Part shown: piece after piece, positions 15,416-39,674 of the stretch
Position numbering within the stretch: position 1 is the stretch's first letter
Layout of the letters: each line of letters starts with the position of its first letter
Assembly (NCBI RefSeq): GCF_004322395.1
Contig: NZ_SCTW01000049.1
Coordinates: 1-64,000, forward strand
DNA: 64,000 bases
From: Methylobacter sp.
GTDB lineage: Bacteria > Pseudomonadota > Gammaproteobacteria > Methylococcales > Methylomonadaceae
Direction of reading: 5' to 3'
The notes under the pieces: model-generated
The model's input: the letters and a program-made list of their open reading frames with translations, nothing else
Databases searched by the model: none
What the model was told of the DNA's origin: nothing
Program-made: the position numbers and the translations under genes

Positions 15416-15425
15416 TATCGCATTA

Positions 15426-18996
<3,571 letters not shown>

Positions 18997-19226
18997 TTTT
19001 TATTGTCAGTTCTCATAATTGTTATACGAATTCTCAAAATTTATTAACTGAGCATGGAAAAAGCCCGCTAGAGGCTGGTCGCTTTTAGCGCAGAACTTAA
19101 ATAGGCAAAAGTGATTGGAGAAGGAATGTTTTTTAAACGAAAATTGACAGGCAAAAAACAACCCGTTACTGTCTTTCGGTCAATTATATTCAGTAAAATC
19201 AAGCGTAATGCTTTGAGGAGATCCCA

Positions 19227-21109: not shown

Positions 21110-21180
21110 GTGAACTCAACACCTATAAACGTTGGTTAAGGATCGGTACGTGAAATCCGGGGTTAAGCCTTTCGGAACAG

Positions 21181-21882: not shown

Positions 21883-21976
21883 AGTAATCACCTAACTAGT
21901 TAACTGGATTATCCGTTACCGTTGACTGTTACCATTCTGGAACGAAATAACTTTAAGATTCGGCTTTAGCCTAAAG

Positions 21977-22318: not shown

Positions 22319-22368
22319 CGGTTTATGTGGTCAATTTTCAACCGGTGTCAACAATTTAAGTCTAAAAA

Positions 22369-22385
22369 GGTACGCGATGCGTACC
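22369..22385. repeat. Palindrome GGTACGC-GAT-GCGTACC
   Basis: A perfect 7-bp inverted repeat with a 3-base spacer. Related, less perfect copies occur at 42775-42791 and 62361-62377. It lies between the broken yceI and the ABC transporter operon end. Confidence 0.6.
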
Positions 22386-22429
22386 CTACGGGGCTTATTT
22401 TCCGGATAGACGATCAGATCGGCGGGGCG

Positions 22430-23596
22430 TTATCGCCGGGCTTGCGCCTCATCGGACAGACCGAGATTTTTCGTGGTTTCGATACTGAACAGCTGGATAT
22501 TTCGTCTGTCGCACTGCAGCGCCAGCTTTTCCCCTTGCCGGATCGGCAGGGAGGGATCGAGGCGGGCGATCAGGCTTAACGCGCCGTCGGAGCCGATTCT
22601 TTCGCGGAGTGCTTCCGGCCAGGGATGATTCCGCCATTCCTCTGGAAGCCGGATCTCGCAATAGACATACAGTTCGGCGCCCAGCCATTCGAGCCGCTCC
22701 ACGGAGGTATTCCAAATGATCGTATCGGGCATGGCGCTGACGGATGCGGCCAGCCGGAAATGTTCCGGACGAATGCCGGCAACGCCATAAGCGCCGTCTT
22801 TGATCGTTTCGGGCCAATCGACGGCACCGATGGGCAAATGCAGCTTTGGTCCGGCGATTGCCGCCGGCAGCAGATTCATGGCCGGCGAGCCGATGAAGCC
22901 GGCCACGAACAGATTGGCCGGATGATGATAGAGCGCTTGGGGTATGCCGATTTGCTGCAATTCTCCCCGGTTCATCACCGCGACCCGGTCGCCCAGCGTC
23001 ATCGCTTCGGTCTGGTCGTGCGTCACATAAACCATAGTCGTACCGAGCCGCTTCTGCAGCCGGGCTATCTCGTTGCGCATCTGCACGCGCAAACGGGCAT
23101 CCAGATTGGAGAGCGGTTCGTCCAGCAGGAACACCTGCGGTTCGCGAACCAGGGCACGTCCCATCGCGACACGCTGGCGCTGGCCGCCCGATAGGGTGGC
23201 CGGCTTGCGATCAAGCAATGGGGTCAACTCCAGAATTGCCGCCGCTTCGTCCACGCGGCGGTCGATTTCGGTATTCGGCAGTTTGGCCAGCCGCAACGGG
23301 AAGGCGATATTGTCGCGCACGCTCATGTGCGGATAAATTGCGTAGCTTTGAAAGACCATCGCCATGTTGCGGTTTTTCGGATCGAGGTCGTTCACGACTC
23401 TGCCGTCGACGCGGATTTCGCCTTCACTGACCTCCTCCAAGCCGACGATCATATTCAGCAGCGTTGATTTGCCGCAGCCGGACGGGCCGACCAGAATAAA
23501 AAATTCGCCGTCGCGAATGGTAAAGTTGGCGGCTTTCAATGTCACGGTGCCGTCCGGGAAGCGTTTGCCGACATGATTGAACTCAATCTTGGCCAT
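22430..23596 (-). CDS. Sugar ABC transporter ATPase, SugC/UgpC/MalK-like
   Basis: The 388-residue protein has Walker A GPSGCGKST, Q-loop FQSYAIYPHMSV, signature LSGGQRQRVAMGRALV, Walker B VFLLDEPLSNLD and H-loop VTHD, followed by a C-terminal OB-fold (TOBE) extension typical of carbohydrate importers of the CUT1 class. It powers import with the two permeases upstream. The codons are strongly GC-rich compared with the origin block. Confidence 0.93.
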   Translation of the reverse strand: MAKIEFNHVGKRFPDGTVTLKAANFTIRDGEFFILVGPSGCGKSTLLNMIVGLEEVSEGEIRVDGRVVNDLDPKNRNMAMVFQSYAIYPHMSVRDNIAFPLRLAKLPNTEIDRRVDEAAAILELTPLLDRKPATLSGGQRQRVAMGRALVREPQVFLLDEPLSNLDARLRVQMRNEIARLQKRLGTTMVYVTHDQTEAMTLGDRVAVMNRGELQQIGIPQALYHHPANLFVAGFIGSPAMNLLPAAIAGPKLHLPIGAVDWPETIKDGAYGVAGIRPEHFRLAASVSAMPDTIIWNTSVERLEWLGAELYVYCEIRLPEEWRNHPWPEALRERIGSDGALSLIARLDPSLPIRQGEKLALQCDRRNIQLFSIETTKNLGLSDEAQARR

Positions 23597-23606
23597 CTTT
23601 TTCCTC

Positions 23607-24449
23607 CTAGCCTTTGACCGCGCCGGCCGTCAGTCCGGCCACGATGTGGCGCTGAAACAAAAGGACCATGATCACGATCGGCACGGTCACCACGACCGAC
23701 GCCGCGGCGATCGAGCCGGTCGGTTGTTCGTACTGCGAAATGCCGGTAAAAAACGCGATTGCCGCGGGAACGGTGCGGGCGGCATTGGTGGACGTGAGCG
23801 AGGCCGCGAACAAAAAATCGTTCCAGGCGAAAATGAAGACCAGAATCGCCGAGGTGAACATGCCGGGCGCCGCCAACGGCGCCAGCACATAACGGAAGGC
23901 CTGGAACGGGGTGGCGCCGTCCACACGCGCAGCTTTATCCAAATCCCACGGAATTTCCCGAAAGAACGCCGACAGCGTCCAAATCGCCAGCGGCAGCGTG
24001 AACGTCATGTAAGGCAGGATCAGTCCGGCCCAGGTATCGAACAAACCCAGAAGCCGCCATAGCTCGAACAGCGGTCCGATAATCGCGACCCCCGGAAACA
24101 TCGCTATTGCCAACGCCCCGGCCAGTAGCGTATTTTTGCCCGGAAATCTGAGGCGCACGATTGCATAAGCGGCGAACGTCGCCAGCACGACGGCCAGTAG
24201 CGTGGCGATCAGTCCGATCCCGGCCGAATTCCAGAGCGCAGACGGAAACTGAATGTCGGCGAATACGGCCCGGTAATTGTCGAAACTGACTTCGACTGGA
24301 AAAAAACGGCGGTCGTTCAGGTCAGCCGGACGCTTCAGCGACAGCGATACGATCCAGATGACCGGCAGCACAGCATAGAAGACCGTGACCAGGCTGGAAG
24401 CCACCCAGAACAGATATTCGATTGTATTGCCATTGCCCGGTTTCTTCAT
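23607..24449 (-). CDS. Sugar ABC transporter permease, SugB/MalG-like
   Basis: The 280-residue protein has six predicted membrane helices and the EAA loop with [21 protein letters not shown] that contacts the ATPase. The ATG at 24449 overlaps the stop of the preceding permease gene (ATGA), which argues for this start against a frame that stays open 294 bases further upstream. It belongs to the MalG/UgpE half of CUT1 importers. Confidence 0.92.
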
Positions 24450-25327
24450 GGCCGCCCTCCAGGAGAGCGAGCGAAGGCGGGGCCGAAGCTTTTGAGGAAC
24501 AGTAAAGCGATCGCCATCATGGTGCAAAAAATGAGTACCGCCACCGCCGCACCCAGGCCCAGATTGAGCCGCACGATCAGCGTATTGTAGGCGACGATCG
24601 AGACCGTTTCGGTGTCCTGCGCGCCGCGTGTCTGGACATAGACCGAGTCGAAAATGCGGAGGGCGTCCAGGGTGCGGAACAATAGCGCGACCCCGATCGT
24701 CGGCATCATCAAAGGCAGGGTAACTTTGCTGAACCGCTGCCACGCGTTAGCGCCGTCTACCCGCGCCGCCTTGATCAAATCGTCCGGAATCAGGGTCAGG
24801 CCGGCCAGCAACAACAGGGCCATGAACGGCGCGGTTTTCCAGATTTCGGTAAAGATGATCACAAATAATGCCGGCCCGCGTTGCGTGAACCAGGATATTT
24901 CGAGATCGAGCAGGGCATTCACGAAGCCGGTAATCGGATCGAAGGCGAATTTCCAGGCCAAGGCGGCGACTACCGTGATGATCGCATAAGGGATCAAGAC
25001 AGCGGTGCGCACCGTGCGCCGGCCCCAGGCGGCCTTGTGCATCAACAGCGCCAGTGCGAGTCCAAGAATCAATTCGAACGCGACCGATATGGCCGTGATG
25101 ACCAGCGTATTGGTCATGGCCTGCCACCAGACTTCCGAAGTCAGCACTTCCGTATAATTGGAGAAACCGACGAATTTTCGGTGCTCCGGAAAGCGCAAGT
25201 CGTAGCGGAACAACGAGAGCCAAAGCGCATAAAGGATAGGATAGGCCGTAACCAATAGCATCGCGGCAGCTGCCGGCGCACAGAGCAGCCACCCCAGCCG
25301 GTGCTCGGCGCGCTGCAGCCGGTTCAT
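24446..25327 (-). CDS. Sugar ABC transporter permease, SugA/MalF-like
   Basis: The 293-residue protein has six membrane helices and the EAA loop [22 protein letters not shown]. It is the MalF/UgpA partner of the next permease. Its start overlaps the end of the binding-protein gene by four bases and its end overlaps the next start by four, so all four genes form one translationally coupled operon. Confidence 0.92.
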
Positions 25328-26583
25328 AATAGCCCTTCCGAATGCAGCGCCCGGGTGATGGCCTGGTGCAGATTCACCGCGTCCTTTTCGGGATCGATCG
25401 CATGCAAGGGATGCAGCGTGCGGCCGACGGCCAGGGAAATATCGTTATACGCCGGCGTCTTGGGCCGCAATGTCGCATCGCGCAGCGTTTCGCGCAGCAC
25501 ATCGGCGAACGGAAATCGGCGGCGGACCTCGGGATCGTCGTAAAGCGCTTCCAGGGTCGGCGGCAAGCCGCTTTTAACTGCGGCGCGGATTTGATTGGTC
25601 TTCGAAGCCAAACATTCGGCCGCCGCAAAAGCAAGCTGCGGATGACGGCTAAAGGCCCCAATGCCGAGGTTGAGACCGCCGGCCGCAACCCGGCTGGGCC
25701 TGTCGCGATAAACGGCCGGCCAGCGTGCGACCGCCATCTCGGACGCTACCTTCGGCGCGTTCCGCTGTGCGCTGTGCCAGACGTAAGAATAATTGACCAT
25801 AAACACCGGTTGCCCGGTTTCAAACGCCATCCGCGCTTGGTCCTCTCTTGCCGTATCCAGCGCGATGTCGGCTGCCGGTGACTGCGCCAACCGTTTCATC
25901 AACGCCAGCGTCGCAACGGTGGACGGCCGATCCAGGGCCACGGCGTTGCCGGCCGTATCGAGGATCGAGCCGCCGGCCGAAGCCAGCAGCGAGACAAAGA
26001 ATACGGTTAGCCCTTCATAGCGTTGCCCCTGGATTTGAAAAGTACCCGCTTTGCCCAAAGCTTCCGCCTGCTCGATCAGCTCGTCCCAGGTGGCTGGGGG
26101 CTTGTTTACTCGGTCGCGACGGTACCAGAGCAATTGCGCGTTGCTGGTGAACGGCGCCGCCCACAGCCGATCCCGGTACGTGGCGCTGGCCACTGTAACC
26201 GGCAAACGCCCCGAGGTAACCTGCTTGGCCGATAATTCGGGCCAGGGCAACACCCAGCCCGCTTCGGCGAATTCGGACGTCCAGATCACGTCCATGCCGA
26301 TAATATCGATGTCCGCGTCTTTGGCAGCCAAACGGCGCACCAACTGTTCCCGCTGCGGGTCGGCATCGGGGGGTAACGGCGTCAGCACAATGCGGTAGCG
26401 GCCGGCGGACCGTTCGGTACAGTCTTTGGCAGCCTCGAGAAAGGCGCCGGAGGGTTCGTTGAAGACGTACCAGGCCAGCGCCGGCGTTTGTCGATCCTCG
26501 ACGTGGCGGCAACCTGCCGCCGCCGTGAGCGCGCCGGCGAGCAGCAAGAGAAGACAGAAGTTGAATCCGGATCGACAATACAC
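25324..26583 (-). CDS. Sugar-binding lipoprotein, LpqY/ThuE-like
   Basis: The 419-residue protein starts with a lipoprotein signal peptide ending in the lipobox TAAAGC, so it should be anchored in the envelope. The mature part resembles extracellular solute-binding protein family 1, especially LpqY of mycobacteria: YVFNEPSG, GRYRI, ADPQREQLVRRLA, DIDIIGMDVIWTSEFAEAGW. Gene order binding protein-permease-permease-ATPase equals lpqY-sugABC, a trehalose importer, so trehalose or another glucoside disaccharide is the likely substrate (inference). GTG start. The 288 bases upstream to 26871 hold no gene I recognise; the operon promoter should be there. Confidence 0.87.
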   Translation of the reverse strand: MYCRSGFNFCLLLLLAGALTAAAGCRHVEDRQTPALAWYVFNEPSGAFLEAAKDCTERSAGRYRIVLTPLPPDADPQREQLVRRLAAKDADIDIIGMDVIWTSEFAEAGWVLPWPELSAKQVTSGRLPVTVASATYRDRLWAAPFTSNAQLLWYRRDRVNKPPATWDELIEQAEALGKAGTFQIQGQRYEGLTVFFVSLLASAGGSILDTAGNAVALDRPSTVATLALMKRLAQSPAADIALDTAREDQARMAFETGQPVFMVNYSYVWHSAQRNAPKVASEMAVARWPAVYRDRPSRVAAGGLNLGIGAFSRHPQLAFAAAECLASKTNQIRAAVKSGLPPTLEALYDDPEVRRRFPFADVLRETLRDATLRPKTPAYNDISLAVGRTLHPLHAIDPEKDAVNLHQAITRALHSEGLL

Positions 26584-26871
26584 AGTGTTGAAATCCTCTT
26601 CGACAAGCTGGGCTAGGTTCGAAATCTCTTTTGCAGCCGCAAATAGGCTCCCTAAAAAATTAGACTCTGAAAATGGTATTCATACTGCATGCCGACTCCC
26701 GATTCCATCACAGCAATTTATCGAAAACAGGTGCTTGCCCGGTTCTTTCTCGTTCAGTAGCGTCTGTAGTAGTTCAAACCTAATCTGACAGTTACTGGTT
26801 TTTAGAGGTGTCTGTCTGGTTAAGTCTGAACTAATACACGTTATTGTTGTTGAGACATCTCTAAGCATTGC

Positions 26872-27248
26872 CTATACTGCAGTGGAAAGCAATAGCACCT
26901 CATTTTCATTGGCAAGTGTGCGAAACTTTTTAAACAGTTTCTTCAGGGCTTCGGTTGTTAACGTTGCCCCTTCTTGCTTTATTGTTTGCAGGAGTTGTTC
27001 ACCGATATACTTTACCACTTCCGTAACTACTCCTAGGACTATTGGAGTGATCAACATCGCTGCTTCAGCGACTCCAAAGCCCAGCATCTCATCTTTAGCT
27101 GTATGACGTTGAAGTGTCTTTTCCGGATCTTTAAAATACGCTTCTTTAATAGGTCGGAAGAGTGGAGCTCCTGAGGAGCAATTTGGGCTACCAAGTCACG
27201 AGCTAGATCGCCTACCAATTCAGTTTGAGCGGGTTGCGTCATGTGCAT
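26872..27248 (-). pseudogene. Conserved small protein split by one frameshift
   Basis: The minus strand starts at ATG 27248 (GGAGG five bases upstream) and reads MHMTQPAQTELVGDLARD to IAPQE. Near 27170 the sensible frame changes: the other frame continues APLFRPIKEAYFKDPEK, then DEMLGFGVAEAAMLITP to the stop at 26872. Joined, the two halves make one protein of about 124 residues with a hydrophobic segment. Neither half alone looks complete. I do not recognise the family well enough to name it. A sequencing error or programmed frameshift would be alternatives to a dead gene. Confidence 0.6.
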
Positions 27249-28021
27249 GTGCACCTCCACATTCGTCCTCGTTAGTGAAATCGAATATCAGTTTCTATTG
27301 GCTCTGAAAGATATTGATTTTCTAAAACATTTAAAATACACAAGTACTATTCAGCTTAAGATTGCTAACTCATACACTTCAGATTAATGGTCAAAATATA
27401 GTATTCCGATTTAAATACAATACGCGCAGTTACCTAATTATAATTAAATCGGAAAGTAGGCGGACTTGGTAATTAAAAAACTGTTCAAGTTTTTTGTGCA
27501 GCAAACAACAGTAAAGATTATCAATATCTCTCAATGGCTGACTTAGTTCTTATAGCAGTCTTACTCTGTATATTTTGACTGTCTGTTGTGGGTCGATTGC
27601 GATAATTCACACAACTGCTTCTCTACTGGCGCAATCATATCGGAATTGGTCGCGGTTTTGCGACCGGAATTCGGCCAGTGCCAACCACGCTGAATCCAAC
27701 CACGGTTTGCACAAAACGGACAGTTATCACTTTGGGCAGGAATGGAGCGGGCTTAGATACAGAAACTTAGGAAGTAGAGACCCGACAGACAGTGAACATT
27801 TGCTATCGACCCTGAGCTGCCCTTCACCGCAAGTGCGTGGACGGCTGGTTAGTATCGAACAACAGCCGGTCGATAGAGCATGTAAACCCTATATTAGCCG
27901 ATACAGGAAGAGCATTTACAGGGGAATCACTGATGTATTGCCTGTAATGAGTCGATCATGGATGATATAAAGAAACCGTCTACTTGCTGTCAGACTTTAT
28001 TGGAGCCAAATTGCAGAGCTA
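27249..28021. other. AT-rich intergenic stretch, no gene recognised
   Basis: About 770 bases. A hairpin of AAAAAACT and AGTTTTTT arms lies at about 27476-27497 and looks like a bidirectional terminator. A 131-codon open frame on the plus strand (27575-27970) has composition and motif content unlike a protein, so I take it as non-coding or decayed. The promoter of the DUF4238 gene should be at the right end. Confidence 0.4.
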
Positions 28022-29110
28022 ATGGCAATAAACAAGAATCAACATTTCGTGCCTCGGTGCTATCTTAGGCCATTCACTATTGATGAGGAGGGAGTCGCTA
28101 TCAACCTCTATAACATCGATAAAGAAAAATTCATAGAGCTTGCGCCGGTTAAGAATCAGTGCTCCAGAGACTATTTTTATGGACAAGATGATTTGCTTGA
28201 GAGGGCAATCCAATCCGTTGAAGTCGGATATGCAACTGCATTACGCGACATCCTGAGACCTGGCTACACATTGACTGATGAACACCGGACCATATTGCGG
28301 ATGTTTTGGTTATTTCAATATCTGAGAACAGAAGCCGCCGCAAAGAAGTCAGTAGAAATGCTAGCATCTATGGGTGATGTGACAGGAGTTACAGACCCTG
28401 TTTTTCAACTCAGTATTAAAGATGCCGTAATTATCGCTATGCGTCAATTTGCAAAAGTAATGCACGCAATTGACGACTTGAAAATCTGCCTCATCAGAAA
28501 CAAAACGCAAATTCCTTTCTTTACTTCTGATGACCCTGCCGTTCTCACAAATAGATGGTGGCAAACTGACAAGCGAACCCAAGGACGCTCATTCGGGGTG
28601 GGTTCTGCGGGTGCCATTATCCTGCTTCCTCTCAGCCCGAAACTTTTGTGCCTTGGGTATGATGGTTATGTTTATAGTGTTCCGCATAATCGAGGCATGG
28701 TAGACGTGTGCAAAGAACAAGATATCGCTTCATTCAATCAGCATCAGATTCTCAAGTGCCACGCAAACTTGTTTGTTCAGCGTGCCGAACACTCTGGAAT
28801 TATTCATGAGGCATTTGCGGAGGTTGCAAAGAACCGTCCGACGAATCGCTACAGAATCAACTATGCGGTGCTTGATTGTAGTGAAGGGGAATATACTCGA
28901 TATCGTGTTGTCGCCCCAGATGAACGCGAAGAACACACTGACATACTGCTTCACACTCAGGAAATTCATCCTGTCCCTCTTTCGTGGCCAAGGCAAATAG
29001 CTTTCAGGAGCAAAGGCACAGTCTTTACAAATGGAACAGGAATTGGATTTATCAGAGATGCAGGAATAGCGCGACCAACTAGGAAGCCATTTTATAAGGA
29101 ACCGGCATAG
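28022..29110 (+). CDS. DUF4238 domain protein
   Basis: The 362-residue protein begins KNQHFVPRCYLRPF, the diagnostic start of the DUF4238 family, followed by a helical region with LRTEAAAK and a conserved FFTSDDPAV segment. The biochemical function of DUF4238 is not established. Family members are scattered among bacteria and are often found in variable, defence-rich regions, as here, immediately left of the SPARTA locus. No membrane segment or signal peptide is seen. Confidence 0.75.
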   Translation: MAINKNQHFVPRCYLRPFTIDEEGVAINLYNIDKEKFIELAPVKNQCSRDYFYGQDDLLERAIQSVEVGYATALRDILRPGYTLTDEHRTILRMFWLFQYLRTEAAAKKSVEMLASMGDVTGVTDPVFQLSIKDAVIIAMRQFAKVMHAIDDLKICLIRNKTQIPFFTSDDPAVLTNRWWQTDKRTQGRSFGVGSAGAIILLPLSPKLLCLGYDGYVYSVPHNRGMVDVCKEQDIASFNQHQILKCHANLFVQRAEHSGIIHEAFAEVAKNRPTNRYRINYAVLDCSEGEYTRYRVVAPDEREEHTDILLHTQEIHPVPLSWPRQIAFRSKGTVFTNGTGIGFIRDAGIARPTRKPFYKEPA

Positions 29111-29247
29111 TTTGCCTGCTCGGCGCATGAAGCCCTTGACGTCGGGCCAGTTAGCATCCGTTTAATGGCGGTTTTTAAGCTTTCACCTGCCATTAGTCCG
29201 AAATTATTGATTAGTCGCTCTTGGCCGATCCTTGCCGGTCCAGATTT

Positions 29248-29372
29248 CATAAATTGTGAGATTTCGTTAGATTTTTACCTTTAATTATGAGATTTTTAAC
29301 CAAAAGCCTAACCTCATAATTTGTGTAACCTTTTGATTTTTATAAATGGTGTTAAGCCATAAATTATGAGAT
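29248..29372. repeat. Four copies of a CATAAATTATGAGAT-type element
   Basis: Copies at 29248-29264, 29281-29296, 29310-29325 (inverted) and 29358-29372 share the core AATTATGAGAT or a one-base variant. They end 13 bases before the start of the YkgJ-type gene, so they could be operator sites, or a decayed repeat array. Confidence 0.55.
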
Positions 29373-29385
29373 CCGACAATACCGG

Positions 29386-29895
29386 ATGAGTACAGTTGCA
29401 CAAATCCATGCCGATATTGAAGCGCGCGTACAACTGATCCGGGGCAACAATCCCGATTGGTTGTGCGGTCTGGGGTGCGACGGGTGTTGCCGAAAACTCG
29501 CCGAAATACCATTGCTCATCAAGGCGGAATGGGATTTGTTGCGGGAGGGGCTGGCTGCATTGCCGCAGGAGCAGTTTCAGGAAATAGGCCAGGGCATCGC
29601 TGCATTAGCCGAGCAGTCATCGCGCCCCATAGTCTGTCCGATGTTGGATCGGTCGGCTGGGGCCTGCAGGGTCTATGCCCATCGCCCGGCAGCTTGCCGC
29701 ACCTACGGGTTCTACGTCCAGCGCGATAAGGGACTTTACTGCAAGGACATCGAGTCACGCGTAGCTGGCGGCGACTGGGCCGAGGTGGTCTGGGGCAACC
29801 AGGATGCTATCGACCGCCGTCTCTGCGGTTTGGGTGATACCCGCGAATTGACCGAGTGGTTCATGAGCAGGAAGAAGGATGCAGACACCGTCTGA
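29386..29895 (+). CDS. YkgJ family cysteine-cluster protein
   Basis: The 169-residue protein has the CxxxCxxCC cluster near the N-terminus (LCGLGCDGCCRK), then CPMLD, CRVYAHRPAACRTYGF, and a late Cys, the pattern of the YkgJ putative zinc- or iron-chelating family. Function unknown. No operon partner: 255 bases separate it from the TIR-APAZ gene and hold no recognisable gene. Confidence 0.82.
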   Translation: MSTVAQIHADIEARVQLIRGNNPDWLCGLGCDGCCRKLAEIPLLIKAEWDLLREGLAALPQEQFQEIGQGIAALAEQSSRPIVCPMLDRSAGACRVYAHRPAACRTYGFYVQRDKGLYCKDIESRVAGGDWAEVVWGNQDAIDRRLCGLGDTRELTEWFMSRKKDADTV

Positions 29896-30150
29896 AAGGT
29901 GTAGCTGCTGATGATTCGCACTATCGAGTGGAGTTTCAATTTCCCAGAGGAACTGTATGACGGGGGAAAACTATTAGGGATGCGCTGACAAATTATTTCC
30001 GCTCATGATTCGACAAGGCTCTCCTGAGCGTAGGTATCTATCAAGTACTCTATTTCTAACAGGAGAAGGGGTAATGTAAATTTGCAATCCATTGTATTTA
30101 TGAAATAAAAAAGTTATGTAGATACCTATGGAGAATGAGAGGGAGATTAG

Positions 30151-31554
30151 GTGAGCCAAGTTAAAAATGTTCGAAATTGTATATTCCTTAGCCACGCTAC
30201 TCCGGAAGATAATGAGTTTACTCGTTGGCTCGCTGGAAAGCTTACACTTGCAGGATACAGTGTTTGGTATGACTTAGACCGGTTAAAAGGGGGTGATTAT
30301 TTTTGGAATAAGATAGAGGACGCCATTCGCAATCACTCGATTCGAATGATCGCGATAGTTTCAGAAGTTTCCCACAATAAAGATGGTGTCCGTAATGAAT
30401 GGGATCTCTCTGTTACGGTAGAAAAACAAATTCCAGGCTTTTTAATCCCCGTTCGTATAGATGATTTTGATTTCAGCAAGCTCCCCATCACCATACATCG
30501 GAAAAATGTTATTGATTTTTATCGAGGCTGGCACTTTGGTCTTGATCAACTTCTTGATACATTGGCAGATTCTAATATTGATAAGTCAGAGTCTTCCGAC
30601 CCTCAAATCGCAAAATTGTGGTTGTCACCAATTACAGAACACGCAATAGACTGGGTAGACAATGAGGAAACGCTTGAGTCGAACTGGTTGCCGATTATTT
30701 CTCTGCCATTGGCCTTGGAAACCGCACGGATTCTTAGCGATGCTCGACGAATTCCGATGACAGATAGCACACGGAAACTGCCTTGGTTTGAATTCGAAGA
30801 TCAAATAGTTGGATTTGCCCCGAGGAAGGATTTAGTGGAGCTGTTCAAAGATTTTGTAGCGTTGGAAGTTGATTCTGCTGTCGAAACTTCAAACTTCATC
30901 AAAAATGGGGTTACTTGGGGAACAAATAAAGTCTCTACATTTGATGCTCGTAATCGTATAGCCACACTCGTGCGCCAAGCATGGGATTTAAAAATGGAAG
31001 AATTTGGCTTAAAACGTTATGAGCTTTCAAACCAACGACTAAGTTGGTACGTACCATCTGGTTTTCTACCCAAAGATAAAGTTGAATTTCTGGACGCTAA
31101 TGGAAAACGACGAAAGAAACAATTAACTGGAACCAGCAGTAAGTACAAAGTTAACTGGCATTACGCCATTAGCATTCATCCAGTATTGAACGATATTCAA
31201 AGAATAGAATTAACTGCACATATTGTTTTTACCGATTTAGACGGGCAATTAGTTGCATCAACAACTCGAATGCATTTGTTACGTCGACGATTCTGCAAGA
31301 GCTGGTGGAATGACCGTTGGAGAGGTTTCTTACGAGCATTCCTAGCGTTAATTTCGGAGAGAACTAACTCAATTTCCCTACCAGTTGGGGGACAACGCAC
31401 CATTGAGATCAGCGCGTTACCGATGAATTTCCAATCCCCAAGAGGACTGAGCGATCTTGCGGATTTGACCGAAGAAGACGAAATTCAGTTGGAAGAAAAC
31501 ATTGACGATTCGCTGGACGACTTTTCTACTGAGAATGAGGATGAACTCGAATGA
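30151..31554 (+). CDS. TIR-APAZ effector of a SPARTA system
   Basis: The 467-residue protein has an N-terminal TIR domain (about 8-140): IFLSHATPEDNEF, VWYDLDRLKGGDYFWNKIEDAI and MIAIVSEVS. E83 in VRNEWDL is the likely catalytic Glu, by position relative to known bacterial TIR NADases. Residues about 160-430 form the APAZ part (an Argonaute N-L1-L2-like region), and the tail is highly acidic (EEDEIQLEENIDDSLDDF), like the autoinhibitory tails described for SPARTA. In the known mechanism, guide RNA-directed recognition of plasmid DNA makes complexes oligomerise and the TIR domain destroys NAD(P). GTG start with GGGAG five bases upstream. Overlaps the Argonaute gene by four bases. AT-rich relative to the neighbouring Wadjet genes. 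Confidence 0.92.
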   Translation: MSQVKNVRNCIFLSHATPEDNEFTRWLAGKLTLAGYSVWYDLDRLKGGDYFWNKIEDAIRNHSIRMIAIVSEVSHNKDGVRNEWDLSVTVEKQIPGFLIPVRIDDFDFSKLPITIHRKNVIDFYRGWHFGLDQLLDTLADSNIDKSESSDPQIAKLWLSPITEHAIDWVDNEETLESNWLPIISLPLALETARILSDARRIPMTDSTRKLPWFEFEDQIVGFAPRKDLVELFKDFVALEVDSAVETSNFIKNGVTWGTNKVSTFDARNRIATLVRQAWDLKMEEFGLKRYELSNQRLSWYVPSGFLPKDKVEFLDANGKRRKKQLTGTSSKYKVNWHYAISIHPVLNDIQRIELTAHIVFTDLDGQLVASTTRMHLLRRRFCKSWWNDRWRGFLRAFLALISERTNSISLPVGGQRTIEISALPMNFQSPRGLSDLADLTEEDEIQLEENIDDSLDDFSTENEDELE

Positions 31555-33080
31555 GTAACGCAAGAAAACTTTTAGTGTTACCTGAGCCATCGCTGACTTT
31601 CGGCTACGAACAGCAGTTAGAACACCCCAAGGACGGTTTGCTTCTATATGGTCCTTATTTTAATCCGCATAAAGGCGGACGAATTCGGATAGGGTTAATT
31701 GGAACAAAAGATGGCGCTATACGCTACGGAAAATGGGTGCAACGTCTTTCTAAAGTGATTGCTCCAAAAAAAGCCAACGATCCTAACCATACAATTTTTC
31801 CTGGATTCCAAGCAGTTTTTCAGTCTGAGTGGTCTGAAGAGCCAACAGCAAAATTATTAGTAGATCAGAAAGAACTACATCTAGCTATCTGCATGGAGGA
31901 CAGGCATCAAGCGATATATAAAGCGGTATCACTTTACGCCAATTTAATAACATCTTTTATAAGGGAAAGCGAGGTATCCATTGATCTTTGGATAGCAGTA
32001 ATCCCTGAAGAGGTCTACCGTTTAGGAAGGCCACAATCAAAGGTTACGAAAGACGAACGACAGCAATCAGAACTGTTAATGAATAAAAAGGTTGCAACAA
32101 GGCTGCTAATGCAACCTTCAATTTTTGATGAAGACAATCGCGCCGCAGAAATATACCAATATGAATTAAATTTTCACAATCAACTCAAAGCTCGGTTGTT
32201 GCAACATAAAGCTGTTGTCCAAGTGATCAGAGAAACTACACTAACACCAGATGAATTCACTAAAAGTAATGGAATGCCAGCTCGCCTTTTGCAAGACCCT
32301 GCGACTTTGGCTTGGAATTTGGCAACCACCGTGTTTTTTAAGAACGGCGGACAGCCTTGGAAGTTAAGTTCTCCAAGGCCTAGTGTATGTTATGTTGGTA
32401 TAGTTTTTAAGAGAGAAGCACTTGGTGCCGATGAAAATAACGCTTGCTGTGGTGCGCAGATGTTTTTGGACTCTGGTGATGGTGTGGTATTCCGGGGAGC
32501 TGTTGGGCCTTGGTATTCTCCTACAAATAAGCAGTTTCATTTGACTCGCGAGAAAGCTCGCGAACTTATGACTCTGATAGTAAATTCCTACCGGGCGTAC
32601 CATAGCGGAAACTCCCCATCAGAGCTATTTATTCATGGTAAGACGCATTTCTCGTTAGATGAATGGGAAGGCTTTCGAGAGACTGTGCCGGAAAATTGTC
32701 GTGTAGCTTGCGTAAGGATTCGTGAAGATCAATCACTAAAGTTGTTTCGGTTAGGAGCAACGAACATACCTCGTGGACTTGCTTGGGCAGAATCGCCGAG
32801 GAAAGGGTATCTATGGACTAAAGGTTTTATACCAAAACTCCAGACTTATCCTGGCAGAGAAGTGCCTAATCCGCTTTCAATTGAAATTGTTAGAGGTGAA
32901 GCCGACATCAATGTAGTGATGGCGGATGTACTCGCCCTAACGAAGTTGAACTACAACACATGCATTTATAGCGATGGGGTGCCAGTGACTTTACGATTCG
33001 CAGATACAATAGGCGAAATTTTAACTGCTGGTCCTATACAAAATGACTTACCTCCATTGCCATTCAAGTATTACATATAG
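31551..33080 (+). CDS. Short prokaryotic Argonaute (SPARTA)
   Basis: The 509-residue protein starts with the typical short-pAgo segment LPEPSLTFGYEQQLEHPKDGLLLYGPY. A MID domain follows (about 140-270) and a PIWI domain (about 278-509) ending in PFKYYI, the family's usual C-terminus. There are no N or PAZ domains. The PIWI catalytic tetrad is missing: the first Asp position reads GIVF (282-286) and the RDG position reads IHGKT (361-365), so it should bind but not cut nucleic acid. It uses an RNA guide to find DNA and activates the TIR partner encoded just upstream. The 4-base overlap gives coupled translation and equal stoichiometry. Confidence 0.93.
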   Translation: MSNARKLLVLPEPSLTFGYEQQLEHPKDGLLLYGPYFNPHKGGRIRIGLIGTKDGAIRYGKWVQRLSKVIAPKKANDPNHTIFPGFQAVFQSEWSEEPTAKLLVDQKELHLAICMEDRHQAIYKAVSLYANLITSFIRESEVSIDLWIAVIPEEVYRLGRPQSKVTKDERQQSELLMNKKVATRLLMQPSIFDEDNRAAEIYQYELNFHNQLKARLLQHKAVVQVIRETTLTPDEFTKSNGMPARLLQDPATLAWNLATTVFFKNGGQPWKLSSPRPSVCYVGIVFKREALGADENNACCGAQMFLDSGDGVVFRGAVGPWYSPTNKQFHLTREKARELMTLIVNSYRAYHSGNSPSELFIHGKTHFSLDEWEGFRETVPENCRVACVRIREDQSLKLFRLGATNIPRGLAWAESPRKGYLWTKGFIPKLQTYPGREVPNPLSIEIVRGEADINVVMADVLALTKLNYNTCIYSDGVPVTLRFADTIGEILTAGPIQNDLPPLPFKYYI

Positions 33081-33094
33081 CTCATAGTAGGCTT

Positions 33095-33132
33095 AACAAA
33101 GTGAAGCCCATCGTTCGCGATTGATGCGCTTC
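33095..33132 (+). repeat. 38-bp direct repeat, left copy
   Basis: About 34 of 38 positions match the copy at 33857-33894. Each copy itself contains the inverted arms GCGCATC and GATGCGC (slightly degenerate here). The two copies bracket the toxin-antitoxin pair. Confidence 0.65.
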
Positions 33133-33257
33133 CTTGCGTAGGATGCATCTTACGCAAGTTGTTGCCCACTTTGGAATGCCCCTTTAATTTGATTTAAACA
33201 TCCGGTTGTTTCTAGTATATGATAGTTGCGACAGTAGCAACCATTGGAGATGAATCT

Positions 33258-33536
33258 ATGTCTATCACTATAGGCGTTAAGCTCGATGAAGAAATACGTG
33301 ACCGCCTCAAGTCCTTGGGTACGGCTAGGCAGCGCTCTACGCATTGGTTAATGCGTGAGGCGATCCGTGAATACCTTGAAAGGGAGGAATTCATAGAAAC
33401 ACGAAACCGCGAAGCCGATGAGGCTTGGGCGGACTACAAGCGCAGCGGAAAATTTGTAAGCCATGACGCCATGGCTTCATGGCTCGACACTTGGGGGACT
33501 GATCAAGAAGGTCATGCGCCAGAGACTGAACGTTGA
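33258..33536 (+). CDS. CopG-type ribbon-helix-helix antitoxin
   Basis: The 92-residue protein begins MSITIGVKLDEEIRDRLKSLG, a ribbon-helix-helix DNA-binding domain, with STHWLMREAIREYLE as the second helix, and an acidic C-terminal part that should bind the toxin. It is expected to repress its own operon. The ATG at 33258 has GGAG eight bases upstream. It overlaps the toxin gene by one base. Confidence 0.85.
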   Translation: MSITIGVKLDEEIRDRLKSLGTARQRSTHWLMREAIREYLEREEFIETRNREADEAWADYKRSGKFVSHDAMASWLDTWGTDQEGHAPETER

Positions 33537-33823
33537 TGCTGAAATGGTCGGAAACCGCCTTGGCGGATGTGCAAAGACTGCGCCAGTTTATCGAACCCCA
33601 CAACCCGGAAGCCGCCCGCCGTGCCGCTGAAGCTTTGAAGAAAGGCGCGGCGATTCTTATCGATCATCCCGGCCTTGGCCGACGACTTGATGGCCGACAT
33701 GACCGCGAAATTGCCATTCCTTTTGGAAAGCGAGGATATGTCATGCGTTATCGGCTTGATGATGACGATATTGTGATCCTGAAGGTTTGGCATACGTTGG
33801 AAGATAGGAATCAAGATTCCTGA
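33536..33823 (+). CDS. ParE/RelE-superfamily toxin
   Basis: The 95-residue protein has the ParE/RelE fold pattern: LKWSETALADVQRLRQFI, PEAARRAAEALKKGAAIL, HPGLGRRLDGRHDREIAIPFGKRGYVMRYRLDDDDIVILKVWHTLEDR. ParE members poison DNA gyrase, RelE members cleave mRNA; the CopG partner favours the ParE type. The reading frame is complete. It starts within the antitoxin stop codon. Confidence 0.88.
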   Translation: MLKWSETALADVQRLRQFIEPHNPEAARRAAEALKKGAAILIDHPGLGRRLDGRHDREIAIPFGKRGYVMRYRLDDDDIVILKVWHTLEDRNQDS

Positions 33824-33856: not shown

Positions 33857-33894
33857 AACAAAGTAAAGCGCATCGTTCGCAATTGATGCGCTTC
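33857..33894 (+). repeat. 38-bp direct repeat, right copy
   Basis: Second copy of the repeat at 33095-33132. It contains an almost perfect palindrome (GCGCATC ... GATGCGC). The pair encloses a 760-base segment that carries only the toxin-antitoxin genes. Confidence 0.65.
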
Positions 33895-34032: not shown

Positions 34033-34150
34033 AGATTTCCAGTTAAAAATTACTATCTAATTGATCTATAAATACCTTTATTTTTAGGGTGGCAAAAATA
34101 AATACTGAAACTGGTAAATATTGCACGCTGTTTTACACTCAAGGAAATCA

Positions 34151-37100
34151 ATGCCAAATTGTTACCAACTAAAAAAAATTATCCTGATCGATAGCTTTTG
34201 GCCCGGCAAAACCGTGTTACTGAAACTGGACGGCCATACCAACCTCAGCGGCACCAATGGCGCCGGCAAAACCACGTTTTTGCGGTTGATGCAGTTGTTC
34301 TGGGGCGAACGGCCCAGCAACATCGTCGGCGGCAGCGGCAGCAAAAAAGGCTTTCTGGATTATTACCTGCCGCGCGCCAGCAGTTATCTGGTTTACGAAT
34401 ACCAGCGCCCGCCTCATCAGATTTGCCATGTGATGGTGCAAAGCGACGGCCGCGCCGCCAAATACAAGTTCATCGATGCGCCGTACCGGCAGGACTATTA
34501 CATCAACGAAAACGACTACCCGCGCGACAGCCAGAGTATAGAGCGGCTTTACCGCAGCACGGCGGAGGTTTCCAAATTCGTCGCGGTCGACGACTATTGC
34601 AGCATCATCCAATGCCATCAACTGAGCGGCGTCAAGAAAGACTTGCGCCTATTGCAAAACCGTTATGCGATGGCCTCATCGCCGATCAACCACATCGAAA
34701 AAGTCATCGGTTCGGTGATCGAAAAAATCGGCGATTTCGACGTCATCAAGCAAATGCTGATCGATATTTCCCGCGGCAAACTCAGCCAAGCCTTCCTGCA
34801 AAACGAAGACGAACAACAACCCTTCCAGCTGAACAAGCAGCACATCGACGCTTGGCTGGCTGATTTGAACGCGGCGCGGGAAATCGAGGTCAAGCGCGCC
34901 GATTTCGACCGCTTGCTGCAAACCATAGCGGAACTGAAGCAAACTCTGAAGTCCTTGTCCCACCTGCATTTTTTGGCGCAAGGCCAATACAAAAGCTGCC
35001 AACAGGAAACGGAAGCACTGGACAACAGCCTCAAAGAGTTAAGCCGGCAGCGCGACCAATTGCAACAAGCGCATAAACAACAGTTGGAGCCCAAAGAAGA
35101 TGCGTTGATCGAAGCCAACAGCCGCCTGAAAGACTTAAGCCACCAGATCGGAATGCTGGAAGCGAAAAAACTGGACTTTGAAGAGCAGGGCGCCGAAAGC
35201 TTTGCGATCAAAGCCGCCAAGGCGGAGCAATACGCTAAAGAACAGCAGGACATTCAAGCCGAGCTCGAAGCGCTGGAACACAAAACCCAGGAAATCAAAC
35301 GTTTTTACGAAAAACAATTAAGCGAATTGCAGCACCGGCACGAAAAACAAATCCAACTCTACCAACAGCAGCGCTCCGACTCGCAACTGCGGCAAAGCCA
35401 AAACTTACGGGAAGCGGATGCCGAATTCCAGCAGCGTAAGGACCGCTTGCTTCACGACAAAGAAGCACGCTTGTATCCGGTTAAAGAGCAACGCGGGCAA
35501 TTTTCGACTGAGTTCCAAATCAAACAAAGCCAACAGAAAAATCCGCCGGTTCCGGCCGCGTTGATCGAACAACAGCAGAAAAACCGGGAAGCTTTGGAAG
35601 CCACCGGCACAGCCTCCAAACAGGCTTATCAAGTCCAGGCCAAAGCGCAAAGCGATTACCAACAGACATTGAGCCATTTCCAGCAAACCGAACAGGAGCT
35701 CAAGGACAAAAAAATCGAACTGAAACGCAGCCGGGAGCTTCATGCCGACTGCCAAAAACGCCTGCGGCCGGAACCCGGCTCGCTGCAACATTTCCTGGAA
35801 CAGGAAGCCGACGGCTGGCAGCAAAACATAGGCCGGGTCATCGCGCCGGAACTGTTGGACCATACCGGCCTGAATCCGCACTGGTACGGCCAGCCGAGCA
35901 ACGACTTTTACGGCCTTAACATCAACCTAGAGGCTTTGGCCGACCGCAGTTATCCGACTGCCGACAAGGCCCGGCTGGAGCAACAGGAAAAAGCCCTGTT
36001 CGAGCAGGTAACTAAACTCAGCAAAGAATGCGAAGGGCTGGAAGCCGGCTTGCAAGCCGCCAATAAACTGCGCGAGCAAGCCAAGTCGGCAATGGACGCG
36101 GCTCAACAACGCGTGAAGCAGGCCGAGCATCAGGAGGAAACATTGCGCAACGAAGCCAATGTGCTGGCCGACCAGATCAAGGCTGAAACCGAAAAAGCCA
36201 GGCAGCAGCTGGAACAGGAAATTAACCGATTGTCCGCCGATGTCAAAGCCTGCGACCAAGCCCTGGCGAGTATCGAAACCGAACACCGGCAAGCGCTAAA
36301 GGCCTTACATGACGAACACCTGGCGCACAATGGCATCATCGAATCCGACTGCAAAAACTTGCTGGAGACGATAGCCGAGCACATCGAAGCCGATACCGCG
36401 CAATTCAAGCAGGAACAACGGCGCATTGAGCAACAACTGAAAAGCGATTTAAAGGCCAGCGGCACCGACGATACTGTCGTTACTCTAACCGTCAAGCTCA
36501 AGGAAGCCGAACGTCTGGAACGCGAAGCGCGGGGCTTTCAACGCAAAGCCGAAGACTACCAAGACTGGCTGCAAAATCGCTGGCAACAACATCCGGAGCT
36601 CTGCCGGCAACGCGACGACTGCCAGCGTCGAATTCAGCAGTTGCAAGACGAGATCGACCGGTTGAAACAGGATTTTCAACGGCGACGGGCGCAGTTGAAT
36701 CAACAAATCGGCGTCCAGGAAGAGCTACTGAAGAAGAACAACAGCCTGTTGGCACAATTGGAACAATGTACCGATCAATTGCGAAGCTGCCCGCCGGTCT
36801 GCGCGGAAGACCAGCCCGAATACGCGCCCGGTACGCTGCCGCGCCTGACGCAGGACACCCTGAAAGCGCGCAAGCGCCAGGAACGCGACATTCAAAGCGG
36901 CAGGCAGGCCCTGGTTCAGTTCTTTAACAAGCACCAACGCAGCCAATTGGCCGAAGCCTGGTCGCAGGTCCAGAACGCCTCACCCCATCACAGCGAGTTT
37001 TTCCAGGCCGAAGCGTTGGAGATCGAGCAACCTTTGATCAATGTGTTGCAGATGGTCGGCCATGTCAAACAGGCCACGGCCCAGCAAATCGAATTGCACG

Positions 37101-37822
37101 CTTCCAGCGTCAACAACTTTTACCTACACCTGCATAACTTCGACCGAGCAATCAAAAGTACCGGCACGGAGCTGTCCAAGTACGTCAGCGAGGAACGTTA
37201 TTTCGCCGCGCTGGGCGAGATTACCGTCAACATCCGTTCCAAGATGAGCGACTTGGAATATTGGCAGGCTTTGAAGAAATTCGGCGACCACTACGGCCAG
37301 TACCGCGACAACGCCTTGTTGAGCGGCCAAGAGGATATTCCCGATGCGCTGGTGCAGGCGATGGGCGAACTGACCGCCCTGCTGCCGGCCACCGGCGTCA
37401 AGATCAAGCATTTGGCGTTGTTCGATATTGAATTCAGCATCTTCGAAAACGGCCAGCTCAAGCATGCCCGCAACGCTAGGGAACTGAAGGACGTTAGTTC
37501 CACGGGGCTGTCCTATCTGGCCCTGATCACCTTTTTCACCGGCGTCACCGCGATGCTGCGCAAGCAAAGCCAGACCGTGGTTTGCTGGCCTATCGACGAA
37601 TTGGGCGACTTGGCCCCGGAAAACATCGAAGCCATGATGAATCTGTTAGCCAAGCAGAACATCCACATTTTGTCGGCCACACCGACTGCCGACCGCCATG
37701 TGCTGGGCCTGTTCAATCGCCGCTATCTGCTGAACCAGCAAAAGCTGCACGAAGTGGAACTGCCGCAAAGCAAGCTGGATCAATTGTTGAACGCATTGCC
37801 CAAGGAGGCCGCCCATGTTTAA
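34151..37822 (+). CDS. jetC: Wadjet SMC-like ATPase JetC / MksB (DUF3584-like)
   Basis: The 1223-residue protein has an N-terminal half ATPase with Walker A GTNGAGKT (34-41), a very long Gln/Glu/Lys-rich coiled coil (about 230-960), a hinge-like interruption near 540-600 and a C-terminal half ATPase with an SSTGLSYL signature and Walker B VVCWPIDELGDL. This is a MukB-type SMC. With the three small genes downstream it makes a Wadjet complex, which extrudes loops on small circular DNA and cuts it. The ATG at 34151 has AAGGA six bases upstream and gives a family-like start. It overlaps the next gene by 8 bases. Similarity to DUF3584 suggests a non-type-I Wadjet, but I did not confirm the type. 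Confidence 0.85.
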   Translation: MPNCYQLKKIILIDSFWPGKTVLLKLDGHTNLSGTNGAGKTTFLRLMQLFWGERPSNIVGGSGSKKGFLDYYLPRASSYLVYEYQRPPHQICHVMVQSDGRAAKYKFIDAPYRQDYYINENDYPRDSQSIERLYRSTAEVSKFVAVDDYCSIIQCHQLSGVKKDLRLLQNRYAMASSPINHIEKVIGSVIEKIGDFDVIKQMLIDISRGKLSQAFLQNEDEQQPFQLNKQHIDAWLADLNAAREIEVKRADFDRLLQTIAELKQTLKSLSHLHFLAQGQYKSCQQETEALDNSLKELSRQRDQLQQAHKQQLEPKEDALIEANSRLKDLSHQIGMLEAKKLDFEEQGAESFAIKAAKAEQYAKEQQDIQAELEALEHKTQEIKRFYEKQLSELQHRHEKQIQLYQQQRSDSQLRQSQNLREADAEFQQRKDRLLHDKEARLYPVKEQRGQFSTEFQIKQSQQKNPPVPAALIEQQQKNREALEATGTASKQAYQVQAKAQSDYQQTLSHFQQTEQELKDKKIELKRSRELHADCQKRLRPEPGSLQHFLEQEADGWQQNIGRVIAPELLDHTGLNPHWYGQPSNDFYGLNINLEALADRSYPTADKARLEQQEKALFEQVTKLSKECEGLEAGLQAANKLREQAKSAMDAAQQRVKQAEHQEETLRNEANVLADQIKAETEKARQQLEQEINRLSADVKACDQALASIETEHRQALKALHDEHLAHNGIIESDCKNLLETIAEHIEADTAQFKQEQRRIEQQLKSDLKASGTDDTVVTLTVKLKEAERLEREARGFQRKAEDYQDWLQNRWQQHPELCRQRDDCQRRIQQLQDEIDRLKQDFQRRRAQLNQQIGVQEELLKKNNSLLAQLEQCTDQLRSCPPVCAEDQPEYAPGTLPRLTQDTLKARKRQERDIQSGRQALVQFFNKHQRSQLAEAWSQVQNASPHHSEFFQAEALEIEQPLINVLQMVGHVKQATAQQIELHASSVNNFYLHLHNFDRAIKSTGTELSKYVSEERYFAALGEITVNIRSKMSDLEYWQALKKFGDHYGQYRDNALLSGQEDIPDALVQAMGELTALLPATGVKIKHLALFDIEFSIFENGQLKHARNARELKDVSSTGLSYLALITFFTGVTAMLRKQSQTVVCWPIDELGDLAPENIEAMMNLLAKQNIHILSATPTADRHVLGLFNRRYLLNQQKLHEVELPQSKLDQLLNALPKEAAHV

Positions 37823-38447
37823 GCACGTCGCCGAAGCCTTGCTCAGCGGCCACTTCATCTGTCCGACCGCTTACCCCGACGCTTTCGAGTATTTATCGCA
37901 GCCGGCCAACGCGGACAAGATCAACGCTTTTTTGCAGCCGTTGGACCGGGAACTGCTGAATCTGGACGGCGAACTCTATTACGCCGCCTACACGGTGGTC
38001 GACGACAGCAACCGTGCGGCGATCAGGGAAGCTTTCTCCGAAACCCGTTCGCAATTGCGGCCGGTGGTCGAATGGATGGATATGGTCATGACCGCGCTGG
38101 GTCAGGATATGCCGATCCGGGCTCGCGACGAAATCCGCCTGCACCAGCTGTTACAAGTCATCGAGCACGAGCCGTCGCTGTCGGAACAACTGAACCGGCT
38201 GACCCAGTTGACGCTGTTCAAGACCAGCAAAACCACGATTGCCGAGCAGTTGTCCTGGGTGCTGCAAAAACTGGAACAATCGGGCTATCTGGCGCGGCCT
38301 AATGCGCAAGCCTCGGTTTATATCGCCACCGGAAAGATCAATTATCTGCATCGGATCATCGCCTTTTTGAACGACGCAGAAAACCTGGAACTGGACCAGC
38401 ATACGGCCGGCGGCGAAGACGGCGAACAGCAGGAACTGTTTTTATGA
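37815..38447 (+). CDS. jetB: Wadjet KITE-type subunit JetB / MksE
   Basis: The 210-residue acidic, all-helical/winged-helix protein lies between the SMC and kleisin genes. It has the size and position of the MksE/JetB subunit, which binds the kleisin as a dimer. The middle segment (KTTIAEQLSWVLQKLEQSGYL) looks like a winged helix. Assignment rests mainly on operon context. It overlaps jetC by 8 bases and jetA by 4. Confidence 0.75.
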   Translation: MFKHVAEALLSGHFICPTAYPDAFEYLSQPANADKINAFLQPLDRELLNLDGELYYAAYTVVDDSNRAAIREAFSETRSQLRPVVEWMDMVMTALGQDMPIRARDEIRLHQLLQVIEHEPSLSEQLNRLTQLTLFKTSKTTIAEQLSWVLQKLEQSGYLARPNAQASVYIATGKINYLHRIIAFLNDAENLELDQHTAGGEDGEQQELFL

Positions 38448-39673
38448 GCTTCGACCACGAACAAATCGCAGGATTAATCCGCAAGCTGGCCGGCGCCGAT
38501 CAACTGTTGGCGCAAACCTATATCAACGGCACGGTGTGTGCCGACGACGACAACCGCGGCGCGATCGACAGCCTGAAGAAATCCGGCATTTTGCGCAACG
38601 CCGATACCAGTGATGAATACCGCCTGACCGGCGATCTGAAGCGCCTGATCGACAGGCTGTTGCTGCGCAACCAGCGTTACCGGCAAAACATCAACATGGC
38701 CAAGATGATCGTCAGCGTCGAGCAGGACATTGAGGACTACCGCCGGGCGCTGGAGCAGAACAGCCAAGACGAGGCCCACTATCATCTGGAACAGATCGAC
38801 GATACGCTGTACGAAGCGATCGAAGCGCTGGAAAACAGCCTGAGCGTGATGTTCGCGGCGATCACCAGCCAATTCGGCTTTGTCAGTTCGTTGAACAGCA
38901 AAATCCGGCAGAACCAGCGGGCGCTGGCCTATGCGCAGCAACTGGTGCAGGAACTGAACCAGGTCAGGATAACAGACTGCTACGACTGGCTGAGCTGGAG
39001 CGACATTCCGCCGGAACTGAGCCGGAAAATCATCCGCTTCATCGATCAATACAAAAGCATCGTCGAACGGCTGACCGGCATCGTCGGGCGCATGAAAGAG
39101 CTGTTGTTCAAATTGCGGTTGCAGGAACAAACAGCCAACCGCTGCCGGGCAATGGCCCAGTTTTTAAGGCAACATCCGGAATGGGAGCCTCTGGACTGGA
39201 GCGGGGACGCCGGCGTTCCCGACCTGTTGCGCCGGGGCACAGGCCTGAAACTCCAGCCGGGCATCGACACCGCCAATCCAGTGTTACAGACCGATCTGGC
39301 CGCCATCGTCCAGGAATTGCGGCGCCAGTCCAAACCCGTCGTGCCACTGGCTAGGGATAGTGCCGCAGCGCCTTTGGACACTGAGGTTCCCGGCCAGATC
39401 GAATACGGCCAAGACCTGTACGACAGCCATATCGAAAACCTGTTTGCGCGCGCCCTTGAACAGCACGGCCGCAAGGTTTCGGCGCTGTGTTATTGGGGCG
39501 AGCAAGGTTTGGCAATCAAAGCGGAGCTGTGGCTGGACATGGTGTTCGCGCAATATTGCTGCCTGCCGCAACGCATGCGCCGCACGATTGCGTTGGACAT
39601 GCAAGGCGAAAATCTGGAAGGTTTCAACGGCAACCAGGTCATCGAAGAAATCCTGTTGCAGCGGGTTGCATGA
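38444..39673 (+). CDS. jetA: Wadjet kleisin subunit JetA / MksF
   Basis: The 409-residue protein has an N-terminal winged-helix region (AIDSLKKSGILRNADTSDEYRLT), long helices (about 70-240) and a C-terminal winged-helix part, the layout of MukF/MksF kleisins, which close the SMC ring. The sequence itself diverges strongly from other kleisins, so the name rests on size, helix layout and operon position. It ends one base before the start of the nuclease gene. Confidence 0.75.
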   Translation: MSFDHEQIAGLIRKLAGADQLLAQTYINGTVCADDDNRGAIDSLKKSGILRNADTSDEYRLTGDLKRLIDRLLLRNQRYRQNINMAKMIVSVEQDIEDYRRALEQNSQDEAHYHLEQIDDTLYEAIEALENSLSVMFAAITSQFGFVSSLNSKIRQNQRALAYAQQLVQELNQVRITDCYDWLSWSDIPPELSRKIIRFIDQYKSIVERLTGIVGRMKELLFKLRLQEQTANRCRAMAQFLRQHPEWEPLDWSGDAGVPDLLRRGTGLKLQPGIDTANPVLQTDLAAIVQELRRQSKPVVPLARDSAAAPLDTEVPGQIEYGQDLYDSHIENLFARALEQHGRKVSALCYWGEQGLAIKAELWLDMVFAQYCCLPQRMRRTIALDMQGENLEGFNGNQVIEEILLQRVA

Positions 39674-39674
39674 C

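Follow-up and report, generated by a model that had tools for sequence, protein, structure and literature searches.

The two overlapping genes at positions 30151-33080 of a Methylobacter sp. contig (NZ_SCTW01000049.1) raise two questions: whether they form a complete SPARTA system, and how such a system came to lie near the origin in a methane-oxidizing bacterium. A first-pass annotation had proposed that they are a complete SPARTA pair whose PIWI site is dead. This proposal is borne out by full-length homology to solved SPARTA chains, by PADLOC and by the predicted folds of both proteins, all encoded in the window, by which we mean the whole stretch of 64,000 nucleotides that was analysed. 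SPARTA corresponds to clade S2A of the short prokaryotic Argonautes (pAgos) in the passages of PMC11156904 cited here.

A TIR-APAZ and short Argonaute gene pair

The protein lengths of 467 and 509 residues, the gene boundaries and the four-base overlap first read from the sequence are all exact in the open reading frames:

30151..31554, + strand: TIR-APAZ gene, 467 aa, GTG start, identified by TIR_2, PADLOC and PDB matches, residues and predicted fold
31551..33080, + strand: short prokaryotic Argonaute (MID-PIWI) gene, 509 aa, ATG start, identified by PADLOC, PDB and predicted fold
31551..31554, + strand: four-base stop/start overlap of the TIR-APAZ and pAgo genes, an operon sign

The shared strand and the overlap are consistent with a single operon. 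The GTG start at 30151 is plausible because a AGAGGGAG stretch, read by eye, lies a few bases upstream. To find relatives for comparison, we scanned 84,980 species genomes with a pattern-based method, which confirmed 257 relatives, and kept the best 80; these 80 loci are not 80 independent organisms, as two come from one Aliiglaciecola strain and two are identical Planctomycetota rows. An in-frame ATGA/GTGA four-base overlap also occurs in 45 of these best 80 of 257. Promoter and terminator scans were uninformative, with 5 promoter-like sites against 8.5 in shuffles, and 6 terminator-like sites against 4.4 (sd 2.1). No second SPARTA was found in the same genome, where a weak TIR-like match stands alone on another contig.

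The TIR-APAZ protein

The 467-aa protein contains a TIR domain at about residues 11-135 (TIR_2, E = 6e-20) and is matched by the PADLOC model Aga_TIR-PNTD1-PNTD2 at 3.2e-143. Among PDB sequences the best match is a SPARTA TIR-APAZ chain (9.5e-62), and the 11 distinct sequences matched comprise eight SPARTA TIR-APAZ chains and three TIR-domain proteins. The protein combines a TIR domain bearing an NADase-type Glu with APAZ, the fusion that marks SPARTA.

Functional TIR and Argonaute residues were taken from passages of PMC11156904 and PMC10474274, with the Crenotalea thermophila (Crt) group (8ifk/8isy) providing the reference TIR chain. The Maribacter-numbered TIR positions in the PMC10474274 passages (e.g. 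42, 44, 54, 154, 159) were taken at the same number of the Crt chain, which has Glu at position 111 where those passages give Asp. The conserved TIR Glu pointed out earlier, E83, aligns with the catalytic Glu77 and is kept in all 76 rows compared (nine of 85 rows, under 400 aa, were left out). Also kept with respect to the Crt chain are T11 (T17 here), G42 (G48), F45 (F51), W46 (W52), R54 (R60), R114 (R117) and N116 (N119). R117, N119 and T17 constitute weaker evidence than E83, since they vary among the relatives (43, 57 and 44 of 76 rows respectively, window included).

The tail of the protein is as acidic as first described, with 17 Asp or Glu and no Lys or Arg among the last 35 residues, and it is modelled with low confidence (pLDDT below 50 for residues 436-467). 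Published accounts of the role of this tail differ: passages of PMC11156904 describe a C-terminal helix of SPARTA that blocks target binding, whereas in those of PMC10474274 the deletion of two flexible regions, 418-452 among them, had little effect on activity.

Both proteins were modelled separately with AlphaFold2 from 22-row alignments. Folded without its partner, the TIR-APAZ protein reaches a mean pLDDT of 82.2 and a pTM of 0.60. Its best Foldseek match in the PDB is 8isy_B (E 1.1e-37), with a TM of only 0.50 and an rmsd of 17.8, and the shorter chain 8jr8_B (252 residues) aligns at an rmsd of 3.1. We read the low whole-chain TM as an effect of domain orientation, because the TIR domain would be freely placed when the chain is folded alone.

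The short Argonaute

The 509-aa protein is matched by the PADLOC class I short pAgo model, pAgo_I, at 3.4e-204. Its best PDB match, a SPARTA short pAgo (3.5e-130), aligns end to end over the full length. The best five of the 11 PDB matches are SPARTA short pAgos at 3.2e-127 or better, and the remaining ones, at 2.3e-38 and weaker, are other short-pAgo systems and one long Argonaute. The model (mean pLDDT 85.0, pTM 0.85) is closest in Foldseek to 8isy_A of Crt-SPARTA, with a TM of 0.93 and an rmsd of 2.2. Each of the two proteins, folded alone, ranks SPARTA chains first in the PDB, and both the TIR and the PIWI fold are recovered.

The former PIWI catalytic tetrad falls at V285, F329, K364 and D485, in a mapping that reproduces the published Crt residues V284, Y328, R362 and N484. 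The reported loss of the catalytic residues holds for three of these four positions, whereas the fourth is still an Asp. The residues surrounding the guide 5' end are kept, namely Y148 (Y156 here), H207 (H209), K211 (K213), N468 (N469) and I507 (I509), as well as R243 (R245); Y156, H209, K213, N469 and I509 belong to the MID pocket, in which a 5'-phosphate guide RNA would be held. The two masking aspartates, D307 and D310, are also present. In the relatives plus the window (83 rows, after two of 85 under 470 aa were left out), K213 is conserved in 83, N469 in 82, V285 in 80, D485 in 67, H209 in 65 and Y156 in 43. The gene pair, its domain content, the catalytic and guide-end residues and the predicted fold of each protein are direct observations on this locus.

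Relatives and host range

Among the best 80 of 257 relatives, the closest pAgos are those of a Nitrosomonadales MAG (L024, 79%), Nitrosospira briensis (L025, 78%) and an uncultured Methylococcaceae MAG (L026, 76% identical), followed by members of the Burkholderiales, Alphaproteobacteria, Latescibacterota, Acidobacteriota, Bacteroidota and others, spanning several phyla. A tree built from 83 pAgo rows groups the window with L024, L025 and L026 (support 100/99), whereas support for joining it to L026 in particular is weak (98/45). All of these best 80 of 257 have a TIR-APAZ match immediately 5' of the pAgo, some of the matches being truncated at the edge of a contig or divided between reading frames; the L026 contig is short and includes only the end of TIR-APAZ.

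The idea that this locus extends the host range of SPARTA did not stand. The best 80 of 257 relatives already include the Methylococcaceae MAG, a Methylocystis MAG (L054, 53%) and Methyloceanibacter methanicus (L076, 45%), and a short pAgo of the methanotroph Methylomicrobium agile was named as early as 2018 in PMC6299218, the cited passages of which do not state its partner.

Within the host's own family, nine of 201 genomes, counting the one that holds the window, match the pAgo (E up to 0.001). The best of the others is 36% identical (L002), and next to it a TIR-APAZ match scores weakly (34 bits); for the other seven no TIR-APAZ was seen in the fetched flanks, which are too short to exclude a partner. 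A search of 72,556 plasmid records gave 100 with a match to the pAgo (E up to 1e-5); in 78 the match covers at least 80% of the query, and identity reaches 54.6%. Rhizobium (17), Bradyrhizobium (10), Sinorhizobium (6) and Mesorhizobium (5) are the most frequent genera. With at most 36% identity in its own family against 54.6% on plasmids and 79% in betaproteobacteria, the distribution is patchy, as for transferred defence genes.

Two plasmid loci show features of their own. On a Rhizobium brockwellii plasmid (L013:7977-9502) the annotation divides the SPARTA Argonaute into two overlapping genes, the copy being either broken or misread. On an Agrobacterium plasmid (L014:3819-14017) SPARTA is part of a defence cluster that also includes TIR, SIR2, RloB and NACHT genes.

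Proposed mechanism and alternatives

The locus very probably encodes a complete SPARTA system, in which guided target sensing would lead to hydrolysis of NAD(P)+ by the TIR domain. The heterodimer, guide type, oligomerisation, NAD(P) loss and plasmid trigger are proposed here by analogy with studied homologues (passages of PMC9513045, PMC11156904 and PMC10474274). The TIR-APAZ protein and the short Argonaute would form a heterodimer, the latter holding a 5'-phosphorylated guide RNA taken from transcripts. The loaded Argonaute would then bind complementary single-stranded DNA of an invader, leaving it uncut because the PIWI site is dead. Target binding would bring four heterodimers together through their TIR domains, and the assembled domains would hydrolyse NAD(P)+. 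The loss of NAD(P)+ would kill or stall the invaded cell and protect the population, an abortive response.

A first alternative, for which we see an appreciable but clearly minor chance, accepts a working SPARTA and is compatible with the mechanism above except for the trigger, which would naturally be phage or conjugating DNA rather than high-copy plasmids. The passages of PMC10474274 name both phages and plasmids; 52 of the 100 plasmid records matching the pAgo are typed conjugative, which fits competition between elements, and the closest plasmid pAgo sits among conjugation genes, in a record that is however typed non-mobilizable. Against this, passages of PMC9513045 have SPARTA acting on invading plasmids, and no carriage of the pAgo was found in 50,697 phage records, a count that says nothing about the target.

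The second alternative holds that the pair is SPARTA by descent with a drifted activation, still binding guides and targets but assembling differently or more weakly, because it differs in the dimer loop of the Argonaute, in the bridging helix and at one residue of the TIR interface. The Argonaute dimer residues Q35 and Y37, needed for Crt activity in passages of PMC11156904, align with P39 and K41, but in a gapped stretch. In the TIR-APAZ protein, the homologue-tested residues D44 and Y105 are Y50 and F108, and the bridging-helix positions Y154 and L159 align with L158 and E163. Five Crt nucleic-acid-contact residues are also changed: R72 to H80, K287 to R288, K325 to N326, R362 to K364 and R364 to H366. 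Because of these differences, details of the assembly may depart from those of the studied systems. Nevertheless, position 50 is variable over the 76 rows (P 21, D 17, K 7, Y 5, others), and the catalytic and guide-end residues are intact, so we consider drifted activation improbable.

That another short-pAgo system, of the SIR2-APAZ or nuclease-APAZ type, was misread as SPARTA has a negligible chance, being excluded at the sequence level: weaker matches to SPARSA, SPARDA and SPARHA chains do occur, but the TIR domain is clear, the pAgo matches TIR-type chains far better than those of the next system (3.2e-127 or better against 2.3e-38), and all 11 PDB sequences matched by its partner are TIR proteins.

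A probable variable slot beside gyrB

The host is a putative methanotroph, as had been suggested, and the SPARTA locus lies near the origin, with dnaA, dnaN, a RecF-like gene and gyrB at 12696-18996 of the same window (Pfam). One pmoA/amoA-type gene of the genome exceeds the TIGR03080 cut-off (none of 14 controls passes), while a second match falls short of it. The genome also holds a hexulose-phosphate synthase above the TIGR03128 cut-off (two of 14 controls also pass) and two Fae matches above the TIGR03126 cut-off (one of 14 controls passes). Taken together, pmoA, hexulose-phosphate synthase and fae fit a methanotroph with the RuMP pathway rather than an ammonia oxidizer. A search of the genome for 16S returned no match.

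The surroundings of the gene pair comprise the following:

29902..33173, no strand: unmatched stretch, probable cargo slot, with no blastn match in 19 kb of the congener G180 (L122)
33219-33823: RHH/ParE-like (ParDE-like) pair, downstream of SPARTA
34121-40589: SMC-like DUF3584, MksE-like, 409-aa and DUF7281 genes, a Mks/Wadjet-like operon

The unmatched stretch, most of which is filled by SPARTA, sits between two stretches that match G180. The dnaA-gyrB stretch (window 12919-19003) aligns with G180 at 85%, and the CxxCxxCC gene (window 29379-29901) directly follows gyrB there. The stretch with the ParDE-like pair (33174-33806) recurs in G180 at 94% DNA identity, 2.8 kb past the CxxCxxCC gene. 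Within the interval that these markers span (L122:8849-12880, window 29379-33806), the place of SPARTA is taken in G180 by a TacA1-like antitoxin together with a GNAT and a SEC-C protein, which is why we regard the slot as probably variable. The CxxCxxCC gene is also present in two other congeners, where it is not next to gyrB in the fetched stretch, and no part of the SPARTA region aligns with their 19 kb. We read these alignments as the probable entry of SPARTA into a variable slot next to gyrB, a reading that rests on one informative congener, G180, the only one of the three compared stretches with gyrB. The system was probably gained by horizontal transfer into this slot downstream of gyrB.

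Some features of the region stand apart. The 94% identity of the ParDE-like pair is above the 85% of the dnaA-gyrB stretch. The roughly 10 kb between gyrB and the CxxCxxCC gene (19004-29378) have no match in the L122 stretch and contain a MalK-type ABC ATPase and two genes resembling its permease and binding protein by eye, the latter found in two of 23 genus genomes. They also contain a DUF4238 gene, which PADLOC matches weakly. A partly palindromic 38-nt repeat flanks the ParDE-like pair (33095-33132 and 33857-33894). It was considered as the ends of a mobile unit, which is unsupported, as the repeat is dispersed over eight genomic places, itself included; it was not found in the three congener stretches searched.

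In the Mks/Wadjet-like operon, the SMC-like protein is weakly matched by PADLOC to Lamassu LmuB (1.7e-4) and Wadjet JetC (2.7e-3), and for all four operon proteins the PDB yields nothing better than E 0.29. The fourth gene, which starts at about 39675 (read by eye), encodes a DUF7281 protein, whereas MksG is described with DUF3322/DUF2220 in passages of PMC10123090. DUF7281 occurs in 41 of 101 family genomes, 36 of them over the curated cut-off, and in all ten loci checked, which were drawn by their DUF7281 family match and include the window's own, DUF7281 has a homologue of the 409-aa protein next to it.

We searched for eight flanking window proteins with phmmer (E up to 1e-3) among ORFs of 60 or more codons in loci L002-L015, L024-L103 and the window, and found in SPARTA loci only the window's own copies. 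Co-inheritance of SPARTA with its neighbours was rejected, as the flanking proteins are absent from the other loci as far as these reach (20 kb in 33 and 10 kb in 60 of 80 named loci). Since none of the eight was found beside SPARTA in the other loci, the neighbourhood is local, and a functional link between SPARTA and its neighbours is unsupported by these sequences. A more speculative idea, which we hold to be doubtful, is that the stretch beside gyrB is an origin-proximal exchange slot gathering systems against extrachromosomal DNA, in which SPARTA and a Mks/Wadjet-like operon with an unstudied DUF7281 subunit, the ParDE-like pair between them, would provide layered plasmid exclusion in one methanotroph lineage.

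If active, SPARTA and the Mks-like operon could partly explain poor plasmid maintenance in such a strain, which would matter for methanotroph engineering. Within the region, the DUF7281 operon and the putative exchange slot most deserve attention.

Comparison with known SPARTA systems

The system of Crenotalea thermophila (8isy/8ifk) resembles the window pair in its gene pair, both folds, the Glu77 counterpart, the guide 5'-end residues and the dead PIWI site, and 211 of 497 aligned residues of its pAgo are identical. The two differ in the PIWI tetrad (V/F/K/D in the window, V/Y/R/N in Crenotalea), in a loop near residue 36-46 that is slightly longer in the window pAgo, and in the dimer residues and five contact residues described above.

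The Maribacter polysiphoniae system (8fex/8i87/8i88), from a Bacteroidota host, has the same gene pair and a closer tetrad (V/Y/K/D), sharing with D485 the Asp at the fourth position, and its TIR-APAZ, matched at E = 1.8e-54, is clearly diverged. The SPARTA pairs of L024, L025 and L026 have flanking genes that differ from those of the window as far as these loci reach.

SPARTA is a well-studied, widely distributed family with several solved structures, and the picture of its mechanism and host range is unchanged by the present pair. To this broadly spread family, the window adds one well-conserved SPARTA from a methane oxidizer, an ordinary member.
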